In this document: in pieces, positions 790 through 62,479 of the stretch
How the letters are laid out: the number at the start of each line of letters is the position of its first letter
Numbering within the stretch: the stretch's first letter is position 1
Source: Daejeonella lutea
Lineage (GTDB): Bacteria; Bacteroidota; Bacteroidia; Sphingobacteriales; Sphingobacteriaceae
Direction: 5' to 3'
Length of the DNA: 64,000 bases
Assembly (NCBI RefSeq): GCF_900168015.1
Contig: NZ_FUYR01000001.1
Coordinates: 281,968 to 345,967 of the forward strand
Notes under the pieces: generated by a model
Told to the model about the DNA's origin: nothing
Database searches by the model: none
Seen by the model: only the letters and a program-made list of their open reading frames with translations
Position numbers and translations under genes: made by a program

Positions 790-819
790 TTTTCTGTTAG
801 TGTAGGAGTTTTGTTCTAG

Positions 820-924
820 GTAATCAGTAATCAGTAATCGGTAATCAGTGATCAGTAATCGGTAATCAGTAATCGGTAATCAGTAATCGGTAATCAGTAA
901 TCAGTAATCGGTAATCAGTAATCA
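820..924. repeat. Heptamer tandem repeat GTAATCR (15 units)
   Basis: Fifteen consecutive 7-bp units, nearly all GTAATCA or GTAATCG, lie just upstream of the DUF5694-like gene. The same unit recurs at 27750-27868 and, in complement, at 25411-25512. Open frames across it are spurious low-complexity translations. Confidence 0.95.
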
Positions 925-960
925 GATAGGAGTTATATTTCCGAATAGGTACGTCTCCCC

Positions 961-1030
961 CTTTCCACTTTCCCCTTTCCCCTTTCCACTTTCCACTTTC
1001 CACTTTCCACTTTCCACTTTCATCTTTCAC
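961..1030. repeat. Heptamer tandem repeat CTTTCCM (10 units)
   Basis: Ten 7-bp units of the form CTTTCCA or CTTTCCC, with two degenerate units at the right end, abut the stop codon of the CBM9-like gene at 1032. The sequence differs from the neighbouring GTAATCR array but the period is the same. Confidence 0.95.
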
Positions 1031-13644: not shown

Positions 13645-13679
13645 GCGAAACGATTTAATTAATGTTCAAATATACGGTT

Positions 13680-13798
13680 GAGAGTTGAGAATGGAGAGTT
13701 GAGAATGGAGAGTTGAGAATGGAGAGTTGAGAATGGAGAGTTGAGAATGGAAAGTTGAAAGAAAGCCGTCAACTCTCCATTCTCAACTCTCCACTTAT
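13680..13798. repeat. Heptamer repeat with inverted copy
   Basis: Units GAGAGTT and GAGAATG alternate in a 14-bp (2 x 7) pattern from 13680 to about 13757. The reverse complement of the same pattern follows at about 13769-13796. Together they can form a perfect stem of more than 20 bp. The array lies between the DinB gene stop (13799) and the Crp/Fnr start (13644). Confidence 0.9.
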
Positions 13799-24977: not shown

Positions 24978-25513
24978 ATCAATTGTAGTGCCTTAATGAT
25001 TAAGGCGAATCATAGTTAGTTTCGCGCAATATAAGCGTTTCCCGCCAGCAGAGCAATAATAACAGGGCAAGTTAGCACTGTTTTCGGCCCTTCGTAATAA
25101 ATTTATTGCATAAAAGTCCAAAATTTTTTTTCCTCAGATTCGCTGTAATTCCAGGAAGAATTATCCATTTCGAACTTATTTAACAAGGGCAGCATCATCC
25201 AGGTAAGATGAGGAGTGGGGGAGTTAGGTAACGTTTTCAGTTGAGAAGTGAGGTATGAGGAATGAAGCAGGAGCCAGTGCTTTCGCAAAGTGGCTTCGCC
25301 CGGTAATCAGTAATCAGTGCCTTCGCCACAAAAGGAGTGGCTTCGCCCGGTAATCAGTAATCAGTGGCTTCGCCCGGTGACTAGACGCTGTGATTGTAAG
25401 GTGGGTCCCTGATTACTGAATACTGATTACTGAATACTGTCTACTGAATACTGACTTCTGATTACTCATCACTGTATACCGATCACCCGATTACCCAATC
25501 ACCGATTACCCAT
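24978..25513. repeat. Intergenic repeat region
   Basis: No credible gene is seen. Between about 25290 and 25379 the motif GGCTTCGCCCGGTAATCAGT recurs three times in whole or part. From 25411 to about 25512 there is a degenerate heptamer array (GATTACT, GAATACT, GATCACC and similar) that reaches the stop codon of the M28 carboxypeptidase at 25514. Confidence 0.85.
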
Positions 25514-27749: not shown

Positions 27750-27868
27750 GTATTCAGTAATTAGTAATCGGTAATCAGTAATCAGTATTCAGTAATTAGT
27801 AGTCAGTAATCGGTATTCAGTAATCGGTAATCAGTATTCAGTAATTAGTAATAGGTAATCAGTATTAG
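27750..27868. repeat. Heptamer tandem repeat GTAATCR (17 units)
   Basis: About seventeen 7-bp units (GTATTCA, GTAATTA, GTAATCG, GTAATCA and close variants) lie between the M28 peptidase start and the OsmC stop. The unit is the same as at 820-924. Confidence 0.92.
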
Positions 27869-29231: not shown

Positions 29232-30704
29232 ATGGGCAACGCTGACAAAACATTATATACCTCTGATACAATAATAGCCCTTGCTACCCCTTCCGGCATA
29301 GGCGCGATCGGCGTAATCCGCTTGTCGGGACCTGATGCCATCGCGTTAGTTAATGAGGTATTTTACGGAAAGGATCTGAGTATACAAAAAACACATACCA
29401 TCCATTTTGGCACGATCCGCGATGGTGAACTGATCCTGGATGAAGTGCTGGCTTCCATTTTTATCGGACCGAAATCATACACGAAAGAAAATGTGGTGGA
29501 GATTTCAACCCATGGTTCCGCATACATTATTGAAAGCATCATAAAGCTCCTGATACGCAAAGGAGCAAGGCCGGCAAATCCTGGTGAGTTTACTTTAAGA
29601 GCCTTCCTGAACGGTCAGCTCGACCTTTCCCAGGCTGAAGCAGTGGCGGATTTGATTGCCTCAAACTCACAAGCATCCCACCAGGTTGCCATGCAGCAGA
29701 TGCGGGGCGGGTTTTCGCACGAACTGCAGCACCTCCGTGATCAGTTGATCCATTTCGCTTCAATGATCGAACTGGAACTTGACTTCGGCGAGGAAGATGT
29801 GGAATTTGCTAACCGCGATGAACTGAAAGCGTTGATTTTTCAGATCAACCGGATTATACATCGTCTGATCGAGTCGTTCGAGCAGGGAAATGTGATGAAA
29901 AACGGAGTACCCGTTGTTATCGCAGGCAAGCCTAATGTCGGAAAATCAACCCTACTCAATGCTCTGCTCAACGAGGAGCGTGCAATAGTTTCAGAGATTG
30001 CCGGCACAACCCGGGATACGGTTGAAGATGAAATTATCATTGGCGGCATTAACTTCCGATTTATAGATACTGCCGGCATCCGCGAAACGCTTGATATCAT
30101 TGAGGCGAAAGGAGTGGAGCGCACTCATGAAAAGATAGGTAAAGCCAAGCTGGTTATCTACCTGGTAGATCCCGACCAGGAAGTTAGCGAGATAGGAAGT
30201 CAGGTGGAATATCTGAAGGGCTTGGGGGTGCCGTTTATTCCAGTGGTGAATAAGAAGGATATGATGACTCCGGAATTTCGGAAGGAGGTATCAAGTGTCA
30301 AGTATCAAGAATCAAGATCCGGGGCTGGTAATCCGGAGACTCTGACCTCTGACCTCCGACCTCCGACTTCCGACCCCCGACCTCAGACTTCCGATGCTCT
30401 CTTCATCTCCGCCAAAAACAAGGAAGGTATCGATGCTCTGCGGGAAACCATACTACAAACTGTTAATCTTCACGCGATTAATACCGACGATGTTCTCATC
30501 TCCAATATTCGCCACCTGGAAGCGCTGCAAAAAACAGAAGCTTCTCTAAACAGCGTGCTGGAAAATATCGATAACCCGGTTACTTCTGATTTCCTTGCGG
30601 TTGATATTAAACAAGCACTTCATTACCTGGGTGAGATTACAGGCCAGGTGACTACGGATGATCTTCTGGAGACGATCTTTAGTAAGTTTTGTATCGGGAA
30701 GTAA
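29232..30704 (+). CDS. mnmE: tRNA modification GTPase MnmE
   Basis: A 490-residue GTPase that, with MnmG, modifies U34 of certain tRNAs. The N-terminal tetrahydrofolate-binding domain (about 10-125, opening DTIIALATPSGIGAIGVIR) precedes a helical domain that holds the G domain: G1 GKPNVGKSTLLNAL, G2/G3 AGTTRD and DTAGIRE, G4 NKKD. The C-terminal CIGK motif is intact. Residues about 354-388, between G4 and the G5 SAK motif, are translated heptamer repeat DNA (30293-30395), which explains a length some 30 residues above the usual 450-460. The frame is preserved. Confidence 0.97.
   Translation: MGNADKTLYTSDTIIALATPSGIGAIGVIRLSGPDAIALVNEVFYGKDLSIQKTHTIHFGTIRDGELILDEVLASIFIGPKSYTKENVVEISTHGSAYIIESIIKLLIRKGARPANPGEFTLRAFLNGQLDLSQAEAVADLIASNSQASHQVAMQQMRGGFSHELQHLRDQLIHFASMIELELDFGEEDVEFANRDELKALIFQINRIIHRLIESFEQGNVMKNGVPVVIAGKPNVGKSTLLNALLNEERAIVSEIAGTTRDTVEDEIIIGGINFRFIDTAGIRETLDIIEAKGVERTHEKIGKAKLVIYLVDPDQEVSEIGSQVEYLKGLGVPFIPVVNKKDMMTPEFRKEVSSVKYQESRSGAGNPETLTSDLRPPTSDPRPQTSDALFISAKNKEGIDALRETILQTVNLHAINTDDVLISNIRHLEALQKTEASLNSVLENIDNPVTSDFLAVDIKQALHYLGEITGQVTTDDLLETIFSKFCIGK
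30293..30395. repeat. In-frame heptamer repeats inside mnmE
   Basis: Four AAGTGTC-type units (30293-30320) and eight CTCTGAC/CTCCGAC-type units (30340-30395) sit inside the coding sequence. They have the same period and style as the intergenic arrays and are read as a Ser/Asp/Arg/Pro-rich loop. Confidence 0.9.
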
Positions 30705-35676: not shown

Positions 35677-35834
35677 GTTGACAGTTGACGATTGACAGTT
35701 GATAGTTGAGAATTGAAAGTGGACAGGTGAGGTTTGAGTTATAAGTGATAAGTTTTAAGTTTTAGGTAATAAGTAACGGCGTATAGGTACTGTACGACGG
35801 CAATTCACTTATAACTTATTACTTATTACTTACA
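35677..35834. repeat. Heptamer repeats between ccoNO and ccoQ
   Basis: Fourteen or so degenerate 7-bp units (GTTGACA drifting to AATAAGT, 35677-35774) are followed by four inverted units ACTTATA/ACTTATT (35807-35834). The AATAAGT and ACTTATT units can pair into a hairpin. The inverted units include the ccoNO stop codon and encode its last residues (SNK). Confidence 0.88.
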
Positions 35835-37942
35835 ACCTTTATATCCGTTCCCAAACGCTGCAGATACGCTATCACAGCTATTATCTCGCGGTCATTTTTT
35901 ATTTTAATGTTGTCTTTTTTGAGGTTTTCAGAAATATTGCTCGCCTGGGTATTCAGATCTCTGTTCGCAATCTTTTCATAGTTTTCTGCATAAGGCACAC
36001 CCAGTGAACGCATGGCATTTATCTTCGAAATGGTTGTTGTTGTATCAAGTTTCTGATCGATTAGCCATGGATAAGCAGGCATGATACTGCCAGGCGACAT
36101 AGTAGTTGGGTCGAGCATATGGTTGAAGTGCCAGGCGTCAGAATATTTTCCCCCTGTACGGTGCAAATCGGGACCAGTGCGTTTTGATCCCCACAGAAAG
36201 GGATGATCATATACAAACTCACCCGCTTTACTATAGTCGCCATAGCGTTCAGTTTCGGAACGGAACGGGCGAACCATTTGTGAATGACAGCCTACACAGC
36301 CTTCGCGAATGTAGATATCTCGTCCCTGCAGTTCCAGTGGAGAATAAGGTTTTACACTGGCAATAGTTGGTACGTTGGATGAAATTATAAACGTTGGCAT
36401 CATTTCAACCATTCCGCCAATAAGGATTACGATCACTGAAAGCACCATGAAAGCCATCGGCCTGCGCTCAAGGCTGCGGTGCCATGTTTTTTCGCCAGCA
36501 TGTGGAACAAATACAGGTTCTAATGGCAAAGCTTCTGCCGGCTCATTGGCCAGGAGCTTGCCTTTGGACATAGTTTTTATGAGGTTGTAGGTCATCACAA
36601 TAACACCAGCCAGGTACATGGCACCGCCAACAGCCCGGAATATGTACATAGGTATAATCTCGATCGTTGTTTGAAGGAATGCCGGGTATTTCAATAGGCC
36701 TTCCTGAGTGAATTCCTTCAGCATAAGTCCCTGAGCAAAACCAGCGAGATACATAGGAATTGCATAGAAAAGAATACCCAGCGTACCGATCCAAAAGTGA
36801 AAAGCAATGAGCTTTTTTGAGAAAATTTCAGTCTGATACAGTCGCGGGACTAGCCAGTAGAGTATTGCAAAAGTTAAAAAACCATTCCAACCCAAGGCTC
36901 CTACATGCACATGTGCCACTATCCAGTCGGTGAAGTGCCCAATCGCGTTAACCTGCTTCAACGACAGCAATGGGCCTTCGAAAGTAGCCATGCCATATGC
37001 TGTGATACCAACTACCATGAATTTCAGAACTGCATCATCACGTACTTTATCCCAAGCACCCCTCAAAGTAAGTAAGCCGTTTATCATACCGCCCCAGCTT
37101 GGTGCAATAAGCATGATAGAAAAAGCTACCCCAAGTGATTGTGCCCATCCGGGTAAGGATGAATACAGCAAGTGGTGAGGTCCGGCCCAGATATAAATAA
37201 AAATCAGCGACCAGAAGTGGAGTATACTTAGTTTGTAAGAATAAACCGGGCGGTTAGCCATTTTGGGTAAGAAATAATACATCATACCCAGGTATGGAGT
37301 AGTCAGGAAAAATGCAACTGCATTATGACCATACCACCATTGAACCAGTGCATCCTGAACACCTGCATACAGGTAGTAACTCTTGAAAGCTGAAATCGGT
37401 AACTGTGCGGAGTTCACAATGTGGAGTACTGCTACGGTAACGAATGTTGCGATGTAGAACCAGATAGCTACATACATATGCCTTTCCCTGCGTTTGATTA
37501 TCGTACCAAACATATTCACACCGAACACAACCCAAATCAGGGTTATAGCAATATCAATCGGCCATTCAAGTTCAGCATACTCATGCGACGTAGTAAATCC
37601 GAGCGGCAGCGTGATGGCTGCTGAAACAATGATGAGCTGCCAACCCCAGAAGTGGATCTTGCTGAGCACATCACTGAACATCCTTGCTTTCAAAAGGCGT
37701 TGCAGCGAATAATAAACGCCCATAAAAATACCGTTGCCAACGAAAGCAAATATTACAGCATTGGTGTGGAGCGGCCGGATACGTCCGAAGGTAGTGTATT
37801 GATTCCCCAGGTTCGCTTCGGGTGTAAAAAGTTGAAAAGCGACTAGTAAGCCAACGGTCATACCGATGATTCCCCATAAAACTGTTGCTATTCCGAAGTT
37901 CCTGACGATCTTGTTATCGTATTGAAATTTTTCAAGCTGCAT
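35819..37942 (-). CDS. ccoNO: cbb3 oxidase CcoN-CcoO fusion
   Basis: A 707-residue fusion of catalytic subunit I and the mono-heme subunit II. The start is 37942 (MQLEKFQYDN); the longer frame to 38143 runs across the upstream regulatory region. Twelve or more membrane helices carry the heme and CuB histidines (for example RPLHTNAVIFAF, WYGHNAVAFFLT, HVHVGALGWNG). The CcoO part follows at about residue 520, with a membrane anchor and CVGCHSQMVRPF. It reduces O2 with high affinity and pumps protons. A Crp/Fnr box lies 81-92 bp upstream. Confidence 0.97.
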   Translation of the reverse strand: MQLEKFQYDNKIVRNFGIATVLWGIIGMTVGLLVAFQLFTPEANLGNQYTTFGRIRPLHTNAVIFAFVGNGIFMGVYYSLQRLLKARMFSDVLSKIHFWGWQLIIVSAAITLPLGFTTSHEYAELEWPIDIAITLIWVVFGVNMFGTIIKRRERHMYVAIWFYIATFVTVAVLHIVNSAQLPISAFKSYYLYAGVQDALVQWWYGHNAVAFFLTTPYLGMMYYFLPKMANRPVYSYKLSILHFWSLIFIYIWAGPHHLLYSSLPGWAQSLGVAFSIMLIAPSWGGMINGLLTLRGAWDKVRDDAVLKFMVVGITAYGMATFEGPLLSLKQVNAIGHFTDWIVAHVHVGALGWNGFLTFAILYWLVPRLYQTEIFSKKLIAFHFWIGTLGILFYAIPMYLAGFAQGLMLKEFTQEGLLKYPAFLQTTIEIIPMYIFRAVGGAMYLAGVIVMTYNLIKTMSKGKLLANEPAEALPLEPVFVPHAGEKTWHRSLERRPMAFMVLSVIVILIGGMVEMMPTFIISSNVPTIASVKPYSPLELQGRDIYIREGCVGCHSQMVRPFRSETERYGDYSKAGEFVYDHPFLWGSKRTGPDLHRTGGKYSDAWHFNHMLDPTTMSPGSIMPAYPWLIDQKLDTTTTISKINAMRSLGVPYAENYEKIANRDLNTQASNISENLKKDNIKIKNDREIIAVIAYLQRLGTDIKVVSNK

Positions 37943-58629: not shown

Positions 58630-59697
58630 TTATTGCTTTATTTTTCGCAGTTTGCTAAGGGATAGAATTTTAATATTGCTGGCTTCCTTTTCAATCAGAT
58701 GTTCGTCTTTGAAGTCGGTTAGTGTGCGGCTTACAGTTTCATTTGCGGTACCGACCATGGCGGCGAGATCATCTCTTGAAACACGTATTGTGACAGTATC
58801 AGAATCTTTCTCACCAAATTTCTCGGCGAGGCTTACAAGAGCATCCCCCACGCGTTTCCGTACAGAATTGTACGCAAGTTTAAGTAGCTGTTCCTGTTTT
58901 TCGCGCACATTGCCCGAAAGGAGATCGATGAATTTTCTGGAAATACCCGGATTTTTAAAAAGTAAGGTGTTAAAGTCATCACGCGAGATAAGGTATAACT
59001 CGGTATTTTCGAGCGTCTCGGCATTATCCGTACAGGCTTTGTTCAAAATTACCGACTCATATCCAAAAAACTCTCCTGGCCCCAGCATGCCGGTAGCGAT
59101 TTCCCGTCCATCCTGATAGATCATAAAGGTCCTGATGCCACCAGCCTTGATCATGAAAACATGCGATAGCTGGTCACCTTCCGAAAATATAGTTTGTTTT
59201 TTCTTAAAGCTGCGTTGCCTGCTGTTTTCAGAAAGTTCAGTAAGCAGTTTCACCGACCGGGCCTCGTCCAGCAGGTTCTCCAGCGAGCCTGTGCTGCCAG
59301 CACCCTTTACGATGGCTGCCCTTTTTTGCAGCCGTGCTTCTATGGCATTTAATAGTTCCATATCACTGAAAGGTTTGGTGAGGTAATCGTCGGCACCCAT
59401 TTCCATCCCCCTACGCATGTCTACCCGTTCGCTTTTGGCTGTAATGAAAATAAAAGGGATGTCCGCAGTCTTCTCATTCTTATTTAGCATATAAAGCACA
59501 CCATACCCGTCCAGCTCAGGCATCATAATGTCACAGAGGATAATGTCAGGCAAGTGATTTTGAGCCAGTTCGACGCCCTTTTTACCATTCTCAGCCGTGT
59601 ATACCTGGTAATCGGCCAATTCGAGTATCTCGGCAGTACTTTCACGGATATCCTGATTATCCTCTATTACTAGGACAGTGCTGTTCGATTTCTTCAT
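58630..59697 (-). CDS. Response regulator with REC fused to Crp/Fnr
   Basis: A 355-residue regulator. Residues about 7-125 are a receiver (acidic E12/D13, phosphoacceptor Asp56 in LCDIMMPE, Lys in YLTKPF). Residues about 150-260 are a cNMP-binding-like beta-roll and about 270-350 a Crp/Fnr HTH whose recognition helix ANETVSRTLTDF carries the E-xx-SR residues that read TGA half-sites. The common phospho-responsive output families (LuxR, OmpR, NtrC) are replaced here by a Crp module. It is coupled to the FixL-like kinase upstream (ATGA overlap). Candidate targets are the TGA-N6-TCA boxes of this island. Confidence 0.93.
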   Translation of the reverse strand: MKKSNSTVLVIEDNQDIRESTAEILELADYQVYTAENGKKGVELAQNHLPDIILCDIMMPELDGYGVLYMLNKNEKTADIPFIFITAKSERVDMRRGMEMGADDYLTKPFSDMELLNAIEARLQKRAAIVKGAGSTGSLENLLDEARSVKLLTELSENSRQRSFKKKQTIFSEGDQLSHVFMIKAGGIRTFMIYQDGREIATGMLGPGEFFGYESVILNKACTDNAETLENTELYLISRDDFNTLLFKNPGISRKFIDLLSGNVREKQEQLLKLAYNSVRKRVGDALVSLAEKFGEKDSDTVTIRVSRDDLAAMVGTANETVSRTLTDFKDEHLIEKEASNIKILSLSKLRKIKQ

Positions 59698-60881
59698 AAT
59701 TTGTTGAATAATAAAGTAACAGTAGTTCCGTGGTCTTGTGCACTCTTACAAAATACCTCGCCGCCCATTAGTCCAACGTAACGTTTAACGATATTTAAGC
59801 CGAGGCCTGTCCCGGGAATGTTGCCTGTGTTATGGGCACGGAAAAAGGGTTCGAAAAGGTTTTTCTGTTCTTCTTCGGGTATACCGATTCCATTGTCTTT
59901 TACTGTTATAACCAGGCCCGATTCACTGACCTCGGTATTGAATTCAATAAATGTATTCTCACCGGAGTATTTAATAGCATTTGATATCAGATTGATGACG
60001 GAGTTCTTCAGCAATGCAGGATCAAGATTAACTGTACTGGCGGTGCCTGTATGCTGGTAAACAATATTTTGATTTTGCTTGGCGATCATTTGCATTTCCT
60101 CAATCAGATCTTCAGAAAACTTAACGATGTCAAATTCCTGAAATTCCGCTTCTGTCTTTCCTGCTTCCAGTTTCTCAAGTGACAGGAAATCGTTGAGTAT
60201 TCCCGTGAGCTGGCCAACAGAATTTTTAATCTTACCGGTATGCTTGATGACGCTATCCGGATCCGGTTTATGAACATATTTTTCTATAAGCGATGCTGAA
60301 AGCTGAACCGAACTAAGCGGTGTACGGAATTCGTGCGAAGCCATAGACACGAATCTTGTTTTTAAGTGATTAAGTTCCTTTTCTTTTTCAAGCGAAATAC
60401 TGACATCTTCTTTTGCCTGTTCAAGTTCATTTACAAGCTTTTGAAGCACGGCAGTCCTTTCTTTGATGCGTTCTTCAAGCTGGGCAGTGTAATCTTTTAA
60501 CGAACGTTCTGCAGCTTTCTCCTTTGAAAGGTCATGAATAAATCCAGTATAAATCTTTCTGTTCTCATACTCGACTTCACTGACTGCCAGACGAAAGGGG
60601 AATGTACTGCCGTCTTTCTTCAACCCCAGAACCTCCCTGCCTATCCCGATTATTCTTTTTTCGCCAGTAGATTGGTAACGGTGGAGATAACTGTCATGTG
60701 CACTCTTATCTGGTTCAGGCATCAGGACAGAAATGTTCTTTCCATGCACCTCTGCTTCATCATATCCAAAGATCTTTAGGGCAGCCGGATTCATCGATTC
60801 TATAATGCCCCGATAATCGATGGTAATGATGCCGTCAATAGCTGTATTAATGATTGCATTTAATAATTTGACGTGTTCCAT
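59694..60881 (-). CDS. FixL-like heme-PAS histidine kinase
   Basis: A 395-residue soluble kinase; start at 60881 (MEHVKLLNAI). The PAS domain (about 1-125) matches the oxygen sensor FixL: MPEPDKSAHDSYLHRY, GEKRIIGI and KKDGSTFP. Relative to the FixL proximal heme His200, the residues expected for Arg206 and Arg220 are also there (His62, Arg68, Arg82 here). After a coiled coil come HisKA (His183 in MASHEFRTP) and HATPase_c (NGIGIPEEE, GTGLGLNIV). It is coupled to the REC-Crp gene. Oxygen sensing through heme is inferred from these residues. Confidence 0.9.
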   Translation of the reverse strand: MEHVKLLNAIINTAIDGIITIDYRGIIESMNPAALKIFGYDEAEVHGKNISVLMPEPDKSAHDSYLHRYQSTGEKRIIGIGREVLGLKKDGSTFPFRLAVSEVEYENRKIYTGFIHDLSKEKAAERSLKDYTAQLEERIKERTAVLQKLVNELEQAKEDVSISLEKEKELNHLKTRFVSMASHEFRTPLSSVQLSASLIEKYVHKPDPDSVIKHTGKIKNSVGQLTGILNDFLSLEKLEAGKTEAEFQEFDIVKFSEDLIEEMQMIAKQNQNIVYQHTGTASTVNLDPALLKNSVINLISNAIKYSGENTFIEFNTEVSESGLVITVKDNGIGIPEEEQKNLFEPFFRAHNTGNIPGTGLGLNIVKRYVGLMGGEVFCKSAQDHGTTVTLLFNKL

Positions 60882-61534
60882 TGTGCTGTAAATTACAAAA
60901 ATATTGATATACAACAGAAGTAATCCTTATATGGCCTCCTGGATCCGTTATTGTCGTTCGGGAGTGCTTCGAGACTGCTTCGAGACTGCGCCGGGACTAG
61001 TTCGCAAATTCTTCTGTAACTGTTCGCAAAATCTTCGCAAAGTCTTCGGTAATTCTTCGCTGTTTGTTCGCAAAGTGTTCGCTAGCGCTTCGGTAGCTGT
61101 TCGCAAAACCTTCGGTAGCGCTTCGGTAGCGCTTCGCAAAACCTTCGCTACGATCCTGTTTTTTCGGATGACTTTCAGGAACAGGGGCGAAGCAGTCTCG
61201 TAGCAAGTACACAGCAGTCCCGACAGTTATTTTGCCACAATGTAGCTATTGCTCCCGGCTGAGCTATTATTTTCAAAATTTGTTTAATGCATTCTTGGCT
61301 ACACTTTCCAGTTTAGATGATGCCGACATCCATGTCCAGACGCAAGGGGTTATTTAATACTCCTAAAGGTATATTTTCATGCAAATCGTCTCCTCAAAAG
61401 GACCTGTTGAGATAAAGTAACATACCCTGGCAATGAGAGCCAAGCATTCAATTTAATATTAATTATTTTTTTTCATTCTTACCCAACCATTCTATTTCGG
61501 TGGTGGGTATTGTGATAAAATAGATAGAAATAAT
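60882..61534. other. Non-coding stretch with 11-bp repeat array
   Basis: About 650 bases without a credible gene. The 11-bp array occupies 60957-61154. The remaining 380 bases to the next gene show no clear hairpin, tRNA or promoter, apart from an AT-rich tract just before 61535. Frames through the array on both strands code for repetitive peptides only. Confidence 0.75.
60957..61154. repeat. 11-bp tandem repeat, 18 units
   Basis: Eighteen consecutive 11-bp units, almost all beginning TTCG (for example TTCGCAAAACC, TTCGGTAGCGC, TTCGAGACTGC), with no gaps. The spacing is exact even where the last seven bases vary. In three frames it reads as 11-residue periodic peptides, which is why spurious open frames occur on both strands. 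Confidence 0.95.
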
Positions 61535-62479
61535 ATGAACAACTTATTTAAAACCTTAAGCGTAATCGCAATTTCAACAGTGTATTTTTCAATAACAGGA
61601 TGTGAGGAAGCAGAACTTCCAATTCCCCTGGAAAATAAGCCGACATCTCAACAACCATCTCCGAATCTGCCGGTACCTGCAGACAAAGTACCTACATTTC
61701 CTGATAGCTCAGGAGTTTCTGATCCTGGAAACCCTTCGGCACCACCGGCAGCGGATCCTTCAGGTCCTTCTATACCGGTTGTTCCGGGTTTGCTGAAGAA
61801 AATCATCTGGGCCGCCCTGGATTACAAAGAGTTTAGGTACAATTCAAGAGGCGACCTGCTACATTATGTTACTCAATATAACAGTGTACAAGGAACATCA
61901 ATAGTGCGGAGAGATGAGTATACCTACACATATGATGGAAATGGAAATATCGTTTCAATCAGTAATAAAGATGGCATCAGAACAGAATACTTTTATAGTG
62001 GCGACGTATGGAGTGAGGCCTTAAGCTTTGATAAGTTTAATAGACCACTTCGGAAATATAAGTTCCAGTTTAATGCAAAAAAGCAGCTGGCTGATTATGC
62101 CGAATTCAATGTTTCGCTTGACGGGGCAATTACCCCGAGATCAAAAACCAATTTTAGCTATGATGGTGCAGGTAACCTGACCCACTATACCTACTTCTGG
62201 TATGTTGAAAGCAGTAAAACATTTGTACGCTCAACCGAATTGCAGTTTTCGAACTTTGATTCTAAAAAGTATGCAAAGAATTCCACGACTTTCGACTATA
62301 TCCTACAGCCACTAAGCTTTTTTGTCAATAACCCGGGTAAGAAGGAAACCCTGAGCAGCAGCAATCCAATTGAATACTATACTTATTCATATGATCAATA
62401 TAGCTATCCGACTCATAGAACGACATCCTATAGCTATGATAAGCCGCTCCCGGAAACGAAAGCGACTTTTGAATATTAA
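61535..62479 (+). CDS. Lipoprotein with YD-like repeats
   Basis: A 314-residue protein with a lipoprotein signal (STVYFSITGC, Cys23) and a Pro/Ser-rich linker (about 30-90). The rest contains repeated tyrosine-rich units of the YD/RHS kind, for example YTYDGNGNIVSIS and NFSYDGAGNLTHYTY. It is much shorter than toxin-bearing RHS proteins and has no toxin domain, so a surface or adhesive role is more likely. Confidence 0.75.
   Translation: MNNLFKTLSVIAISTVYFSITGCEEAELPIPLENKPTSQQPSPNLPVPADKVPTFPDSSGVSDPGNPSAPPAADPSGPSIPVVPGLLKKIIWAALDYKEFRYNSRGDLLHYVTQYNSVQGTSIVRRDEYTYTYDGNGNIVSISNKDGIRTEYFYSGDVWSEALSFDKFNRPLRKYKFQFNAKKQLADYAEFNVSLDGAITPRSKTNFSYDGAGNLTHYTYFWYVESSKTFVRSTELQFSNFDSKKYAKNSTTFDYILQPLSFFVNNPGKKETLSSSNPIEYYTYSYDQYSYPTHRTTSYSYDKPLPETKATFEY

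Follow-up and report, generated by a model that had tools for sequence, protein, structure and literature searches.

Tandem repeats with a unit length that three does not divide are expected outside genes or as on/off switches. The locus described here raises the question of how such repeats came to sit, in nine related genomes and with exchanged letters, inside a conserved enzyme of tRNA modification. It lies in a 64,000-nucleotide stretch of DNA from Daejeonella lutea, called the window below, for which an earlier note had described heptamer repeats inserted in frame in the G domain of mnmE. The features of the gene, including the G4 and G5 motifs, are the following.

29232 to 30704, forward strand: mnmE, tRNA uridine-5-carboxymethylaminomethyl(34) synthesis GTPase, open reading frame of 490 aa with NCBIfam, Pfam and PDB matches
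30249 to 30260, forward strand: G4 motif NKKD, residues 340-343, read from the sequence
30288 to 30318, forward strand: first heptamer arm, GTATCAA-type, AGT-sense, from period-7 detection
30319 to 30338, forward strand: spacer separating the two arms, read from the sequence
30339 to 30394, forward strand: second heptamer arm, CTCCGAC-type, in the opposite sense (reverse complement GTCGGAG), from period-7 detection
30408 to 30416, forward strand: G5 motif SAK, residues 393-395, read from the sequence

The protein passes the NCBIfam equivalog cut-offs for MnmE over its full length, with 391.8 bits against 252.6 required for TIGR00450 and 382.5 bits against 380 for NF003661. It contains the Pfam domains TrmE_N, MMR_HSR1 and MnmE_helical and matches the PDB MnmE chains 3gee, 1xzp, 3geh and 9hip; Pfam, NCBIfam, PDB and fold searches returned MnmE identity only. 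G1, G3, G4, G5 and the C-terminal CIGK are all visible in the translation. In a 40-row alignment N340, K341 and A394 are invariant and S393 is nearly so. This confirms that both heptamer arrays sit in frame in the G4-G5 interval and that MnmE is otherwise intact. The first arm reads GTATCAAGTGTCAAGTATCAAGAATCAAGAT, and the second also scores as a 21-bp period. The loop from NKxD to ISAK is 48 aa long against 17 aa in relatives, an insert of about 31 aa, which bears out the idea of two heptamer families forming a low-complexity loop in an intact enzyme. The span first given, 30293 to 30395, covers the feature (residues 354-388); its start is five bases late, the true one being 30288.

The insert was then compared across the genus, with one genome per species; G000 denotes the window's own genome and the other G numbers the compared genomes. 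A readable mnmE loop was found in 13 of 20 genomes, the drafts of G006, G009, G011, G012, G015, G017 and G018 being without one. Nine of the 13 (G000 with G001, G002, G003, G004, G007, G008, G010 and G019) have the insert at exactly the same place, with loops of 37 to 96 aa, and four (G005, G013, G014 and G016) have none. The loop is exactly 17 aa in 73 of 80 named loci in the alignment, the other seven being members of the insert group again, so that the 80-locus and 13-genome counts overlap. In an mnmE tree built without the loop (20 rows, the G008 row being a 36% fragment from a contig end), all nine carriers fall on one side of a single branch with support 99/98. Since this requires only one state change, a single ancestral origin of the insert is the simplest reading. 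The earlier note had proposed an alignment of close relatives, which might have carried the same residues without repeat character; in the alignment, clade members have different repeats, not identical residues minus the repeats. The variability that it had suggested between strains is seen between species, in both length and unit.

The units differ even between sister species. In G000 the arms are GTATCAA then CTCCGAC, and in its sister G003 they are GTATCAG then CTTTCAA. GTTATCA is the first-arm unit in G001, G002, G004 and G008; it is paired with GACAACA/GATAACA in G002 and similarly in G004, while G001 is without a clear second arm. The trio G007, G010 and G019 has GTCNGA-type units followed by TCAGACC. 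The encoded peptide is wholly different between species, as in KYQESRS, KSDVGSR, LSVISYQ and DNRQQTT.

All of these loops remain readable. No stop codon occurs in frame in the nine loops, compared with 66 in the other two frames (12 in +1, 54 in +2), which agrees with the functional filter that had been expected. The reasoning behind that expectation, that a period of 7 keeps the frame only in steps of three units, is not supported in that form: counted over the 17-aa base loop, the inserts are 60 to 237 bp long and none is a multiple of 21 bp, because the two arms and the spacer share the bookkeeping. Strict 21-bp stepping of the whole insert is ruled out by these lengths. A 21-bp super-period is present weakly and in some arms, with a lag-21 identity of 0.646 in mnmE against 0.594 and 0.613 in the other arrays of G000 and G003.

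Since 7 is one more than a multiple of 3, all three frames of a pure heptamer array read as a single circular heptapeptide, and a homogeneous unit therefore has stops in all frames or in none. Read in the AGT sense, AGTATCA and AGTTATC are open, but their reverse is closed; AGTTGAA and AGTCTGA show the opposite behaviour, and AGTCGGA is open both ways. Occupancy of the mnmE arms follows the stop-free orientations, with the exception of the first arm of the trio G007, G010 and G019, where the AGTCTGA family occurs in a mixed, 21-bp-phased form. In the trio, T at base x of NGTYxGA makes TGA, and it is confined to one non-codon phase. It occupies base x in 11 of 12 cases of the third phase, compared with 0 of 6 of the codon phase and 0 of 11 of the second. 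Since T is also absent in the second phase, where TGA is harmless, duplication in 21-bp blocks accounts for part of this pattern, not stop avoidance alone.

The period-7 signal is not peculiar to mnmE; it is a chromosome-wide feature. The window has 10 period-7 arrays, both mnmE arms among them, and the same detector found no array in 18 and one array in 2 of 20 first-order simulated windows. Over 1.2 Mb, the same contig contains 133 period-7 arrays grouped into 82 clusters, where order-3 simulations gave 6, 5 and 4, which places tandem 7-bp units above chance at many loci. Other periods give 3 to 29 arrays each, except the multiples 14 (111) and 21 (69). Outside mnmE the window contains the following arrays.

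817 to 1029, forward strand: pair of a GTAATCA array and then an opposite-sense CTTTCCA array, from period-7 detection
13677 to 13795, forward strand: pair of a GAGTTGA-type array and then a TCAACTC array (contig coordinates C10 295643-295762)
25275 to 25511, forward strand: composite array region, GTAATCA and then CTGATTA/CTGAATA, from period-7 detection
27750 to 27866, forward strand: GTAATCA array between two open reading frames, about 1.4 kb before mnmE, from period-7 detection
35677 to 35836, forward strand: arrays ending in an opposite-sense AGTTATA-type pair (the pair at contig C10 317700-317805), from period-7 detection

At the place in G004 that is syntenic to 27750-27866 there is no array. 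Composite repeats like AGTGGCTTCGCCCGGTAATCAGTAATC recur by GTAATCA arrays, at window 25275-25373 and in G000 C10 near 586040, 586815 and 630151, as if heptamers formed part of a larger element. Read circularly on either strand, AGT occurs in 72 of the 133 consensus units compared with 18.5% for random heptamers from the genome. The generic pattern AGTNNNN was set aside as evidence for an AGT core, since TGA is also contained in many units, which makes the reversed control about equally frequent in G000 and several congeners; the core is therefore argued from the array census. The congener G016, which has no mnmE insert, has six period-7 arrays in 400 kb (C3 243901-643900), none with an AGT unit.

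Arrays inside genes are rare. Only five clusters lie within open reading frames of at least 100 aa in the 1.2 Mb, and the identified genes are mnmE and valS; the other three were judged by eye to be chance open reading frames. A relaxed scan of the same 1.2 Mb gave six rows against one in a codon-shuffled null. It added three open reading frames of 168-178 aa with the array inside the first 33 residues, one with DUF4296 downstream of the array, one with a sub-threshold NCBIfam match only and one with none; these arrays may precede the true starts. Applied to samples of G003 (0.36 Mb), G004 and G016 (0.4 Mb each), the relaxed scan recovered mnmE in G003 and G004, a weak stretch in a long G003 open reading frame and another close to the beginning of an open reading frame in G016. 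The valS expansion (G000:C10:255317-255344) lies in a variable loop after YI(K/R)YQV. It is present in G000, G003 and G005, a CACAACT-type stretch occurs in G006, and none was seen by eye in the other 15 of 19 genomes. The G003 version is longer and ends in an opposite-sense stretch, and the seed of the expansion seems to have been the codons of YIKYQV, which already read as a heptamer.

The mnmE units were compared with the arrays of their own genomes. For five unit families, exact arrays of three copies were counted in the 20 genus genomes, mnmE matches excluded, and a family was called frequent with at least five matches elsewhere in the same genome. Using strict two-copy mnmE patterns, 9 of 11 families were also frequent outside mnmE in their own genome (p 0.004 with genomes shuffled; 0.005 for the share of matches), these p values, like those that follow, being rough since the five families were derived from the mnmE inserts and several genomes are closely related. 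Reduced to seven genomes, with one of G007, G010 and G019, the strict test gave 7 of 9 (p 0.014; share of matches 0.019). A looser pattern, with an extra alternative written to admit the imperfect first arm of G000 and with A/G allowed in family A, gave 10 of 12 (p 0.0007; share 0.001; 0.008 with seven genomes). The values weaken when the looser alternatives are dropped, and our confidence was lowered slightly on that account. The mnmE heptamers thus tend to match families common elsewhere in their own genome, a genome-specific dialect, and part of this match may be shared descent.

All 10 GTATCAR matches in G003 are GTATCAG, the form present in its mnmE; in G000 both A and G occur at the last base. 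Exact GTTGAAA arrays occur in G000 and G003 only, of the 20 genomes; the reversed GTTGAAA pattern is the same repeat (11 and 19 matches) and provides no valid control. Two genomes are exceptions. In G008 the mnmE unit GTTATCA has no other exact three-copy match in the genome, where the GTCNGA family has 47. In G004, whose sample contains few arrays, none of the matches belongs to the family of its mnmE arm.

The best explanation of the whole, which we favour with moderate confidence, is one ancestral insertion in a tolerant loop that was then kept in place by the reading frame, while a species-specific pool of heptamers spread over the genome supplied new units and only the translatable versions survived. 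The ancestor of one Daejeonella-like clade would have acquired, a single time, a pair of heptamer arrays in the short G4-G5 loop of MnmE. The reading frame would then have locked the array in place, as most partial deletions would frameshift a conserved enzyme. After that the units would have been rewritten repeatedly after the genome-specific dialect, most likely by exchange or conversion between scattered arrays. Selection would act mainly on translatability, the survivors being stop-free units or mixed ones with TGA in a harmless phase, and the peptide would be a flexible loop whose particular sequence has no role of its own.

A possible but rather unlikely alternative to exchange between loci is that each array changes by local 7-bp polymerase slippage only, its likeness to the pool arising from shared descent or mutational bias. 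Heptameric repeats are over-represented in many bacteria, and one study proposes slippage linked to the DNA segment that the polymerase grips (PMC4692102). The apparent start of the valS expansion at the conserved YIKYQV codons is consistent with such a process, as are the sharing of families by sister species and the departure of G008 and G004 from their genome pools. Against slippage alone, the mnmE unit changes from one sister clade to the next and in most cases resembles the arrays of the genome that carries it, and G000 and G003 differ at the A/G of the first arm and in the second arm, each like its own genome. In the single-insertion reading, array exchange would be the probable source of the correlation. 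A more speculative form of the exchange idea, which we consider unlikely as a whole, is that the AGT-core, often inward-facing repeats of many Bacteroidia genomes are self-spreading, with a dialect copied in trans from array to array that, whenever it changes, rewrites a stretch of protein even in a core gene, the stop codon being the main censor. It fits much of the data, yet there are the two exceptions in nine genomes. If true, a microsatellite would be evolving in concert over a whole bacterial chromosome, a process for which no enzyme is known to us.

Persistence of the mnmE array contrasts with turnover elsewhere. A syntenic interval in the G003 sample could be assigned to 22 G000 clusters; it contains an array for 10 of them (mnmE included) and none for 12. 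Of the nine apart from mnmE, five have, by our reading, the same unit family in both species and four have different ones. Arrays outside mnmE therefore come and go between sister species, whereas the mnmE array persists in nine genomes. It is retained even in G004, which has few arrays (8 in a 400-kb sample, G004:C21; 2.0 per 100 kb). Frame-locking would be a simple reason for this persistence: imprecise loss would be costly inside a conserved gene, and no benefit of the insert is needed.

Persistence could instead mean that the loop is a selected protein element, e.g., a disordered linker altering the GTPase cycle, dimerisation or partner binding, which we consider quite improbable. Its presence in all nine readable clade genomes, including array-poor G004 in its 400-kb sample, and the rarity of arrays in recognised genes, valS being the sole other clear case in 1.2 Mb, would suit such a role. 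However, loop length and composition are entirely different between species, the 73 loci of ordinary length have no insert at all, and frame-locking explains the persistence equally well. The wholesale change of the peptide between species argues against a sequence-specific function, and the suggestion that the loop tunes GTPase activity found no support. In the AlphaFold model, a helix at 347-355 is followed by residues 359-386 with pLDDT below 50 and without secondary structure; the whole model is weak (mean pLDDT 65.6, pTM 0.37), and its best structural matches are MnmE structures with low TM-scores. The phmmer alignments to 3gee and 1xzp are interrupted at the insert (344/388 and 352/391). 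The loop is probably flexible.

The arrangement of the arms might also suggest a role as nucleic acid, in which an inverted heptamer hairpin in mRNA or DNA, like the P6b stem of the Nostoc intron treated below, would serve expression or repeat turnover; this we consider very improbable. To describe how neighbouring arrays face each other, arrays spaced at most 200 bp apart were paired under relaxed detection in 1.2 Mb of G000 (C10 1-1200000) and 0.36 Mb of G003 (C4 70001-430000). Oriented by the GT core, the 62 pairs comprise 34 same-sense, 26 convergent and 2 divergent ones. Convergent partners are alike, with a unit identity of 5.35/7 against 4.22 when shuffled, and none of 5000 shuffles was as high. 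This genome-wide tendency of convergent neighbours to be inverted copies favours the idea. The mnmE insert has the convergent layout, yet its arms are unlike each other, agreeing at only 3/7 unit positions in G000, among the lowest of the 26 pairs, and likewise in G003. Moreover, a perfect inverted arm for units AGTATCA or AGTTATC would contain stops. RNA fold z-scores of the nine mnmE loops range from +1.6 to -2.7. Three loops, at -2.7, -2.5 and -2.1, are compatible with a hairpin, whereas the window (+1.1), G003 (+1.6) and G010 (+0.5) are on the opposite side and three others lie between -0.9 and -1.5. A conserved mRNA hairpin in the insert is unsupported for the window species and mixed in the other genomes. 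As a separate observation, the same-sense pairs are uneven by strand, 28 of them ++ and 6 --, for which we offer no explanation.

Repeats are a frequent source of assembly error, but an assembly or annotation artefact, the former named in the earlier note as something that would refute it, can practically be dismissed, as the insert is present in nine genomes with stop-free in-frame loops and intact flanks in eight, G008 being a contig-end fragment.

Heptamers inside open reading frames are already known, and it is their persistence at the same site with unit switching in a core enzyme that looks new. No report of a heptamer loop in mnmE was found among the matches listed in a literature search on heptamer repeats and MnmE insertions, in which subscription journals were thinly covered, and an excerpt of an MnmE structure paper contains nothing bearing on the G4-G5 loop (PMC2749940).

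TAACTGA heptamer direct repeats occur in Beggiatoaceae, Cyanobacteria and some Bacteroidetes, mostly in intergenic arrays; some lie inside open reading frames in the stop-free orientation, encoding LSVISYQ (MacGregor, 2015, PMC4679880). The mnmE system resembles them in its genome-wide heptamer arrays and in GTTATCA, the unit of G001, G002, G004 and G008, which is TAACTGA in reverse orientation and encodes the same peptide. In the published cases, however, reverse-orientation repeats in open reading frames of assigned function are near protein ends or outside functional regions, bar one RNA-polymerase-like open reading frame (PMC4679880), whereas the mnmE array lies within the G domain of a core enzyme and occupies one site shared by nine genomes, with other units and unit switching. 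Exact three-copy GTTATCA matches were found in G001, G002, G009 and G017, and in G008 in mnmE only; G000 has none, and its arrays are therefore not TAACTGA repeats strictly defined.

In the P6b stem-loop of the Nostoc tRNA-Leu(UAA) intron, heptamer classes have been replaced one by another several times on the tree (PMC4476775). A fixed site with variable heptamers and class replacement is common to both systems; in mnmE the replacement is seen as differences between species at one site. The difference is that P6b is a paired RNA stem in an intron (PMC4476775), whereas the mnmE insert is a translated loop whose arms in the window are unpaired, with the positive fold score and the low arm identity given above.

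Archaeal Borg elements resemble mnmE in having tandem repeats in open reading frames, with fast turnover and a frame filter; the Borg amino-acid repeats are mostly disordered regions (PMC9879509). All Borg repeat units are divisible by three, while the mnmE unit is 7 bp and its frame is kept by the whole insert together with the absence of stops. The heptamers GGGAATC and GGGGA(C/T)T of Xanthomonas and Nostoc are likewise genome-wide, variable in length and sequence at shared sites and sometimes inverted; they form G-quadruplexes and are under-represented in coding regions, unlike the coding loop of mnmE (PMC4692102).

The mnmE loop may serve as a natural marker for the movement and rewriting of bacterial heptamer arrays, a matter left open in the excerpts of the cited papers. 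Its value as a marker is that the reading frame exposes each surviving state and that insert-free relatives supply the empty site.

Two further observations concern repeats beyond the heptamers of this clade. The window has an 11-bp degenerate tandem array of TTCGC type at 60957-61150, a repeat class distinct from the heptamers, lying between open reading frames at 59694-60914 (reverse strand) and 61535-62479 (forward strand), which by eye resemble a sensor kinase and a secreted repeat protein. AGTNNNN arrays have a match in 39 of 60 genomes. In G037, G048 and G041, bacteria of the same class but of other taxonomic families, the matches listed include other dialects, namely AGTTGGC/AGTGGGC in G037, where matches are very many, AGTAGAT/AGTAGGC in G048 and AGTCGGA/AGTTGTC in G041.
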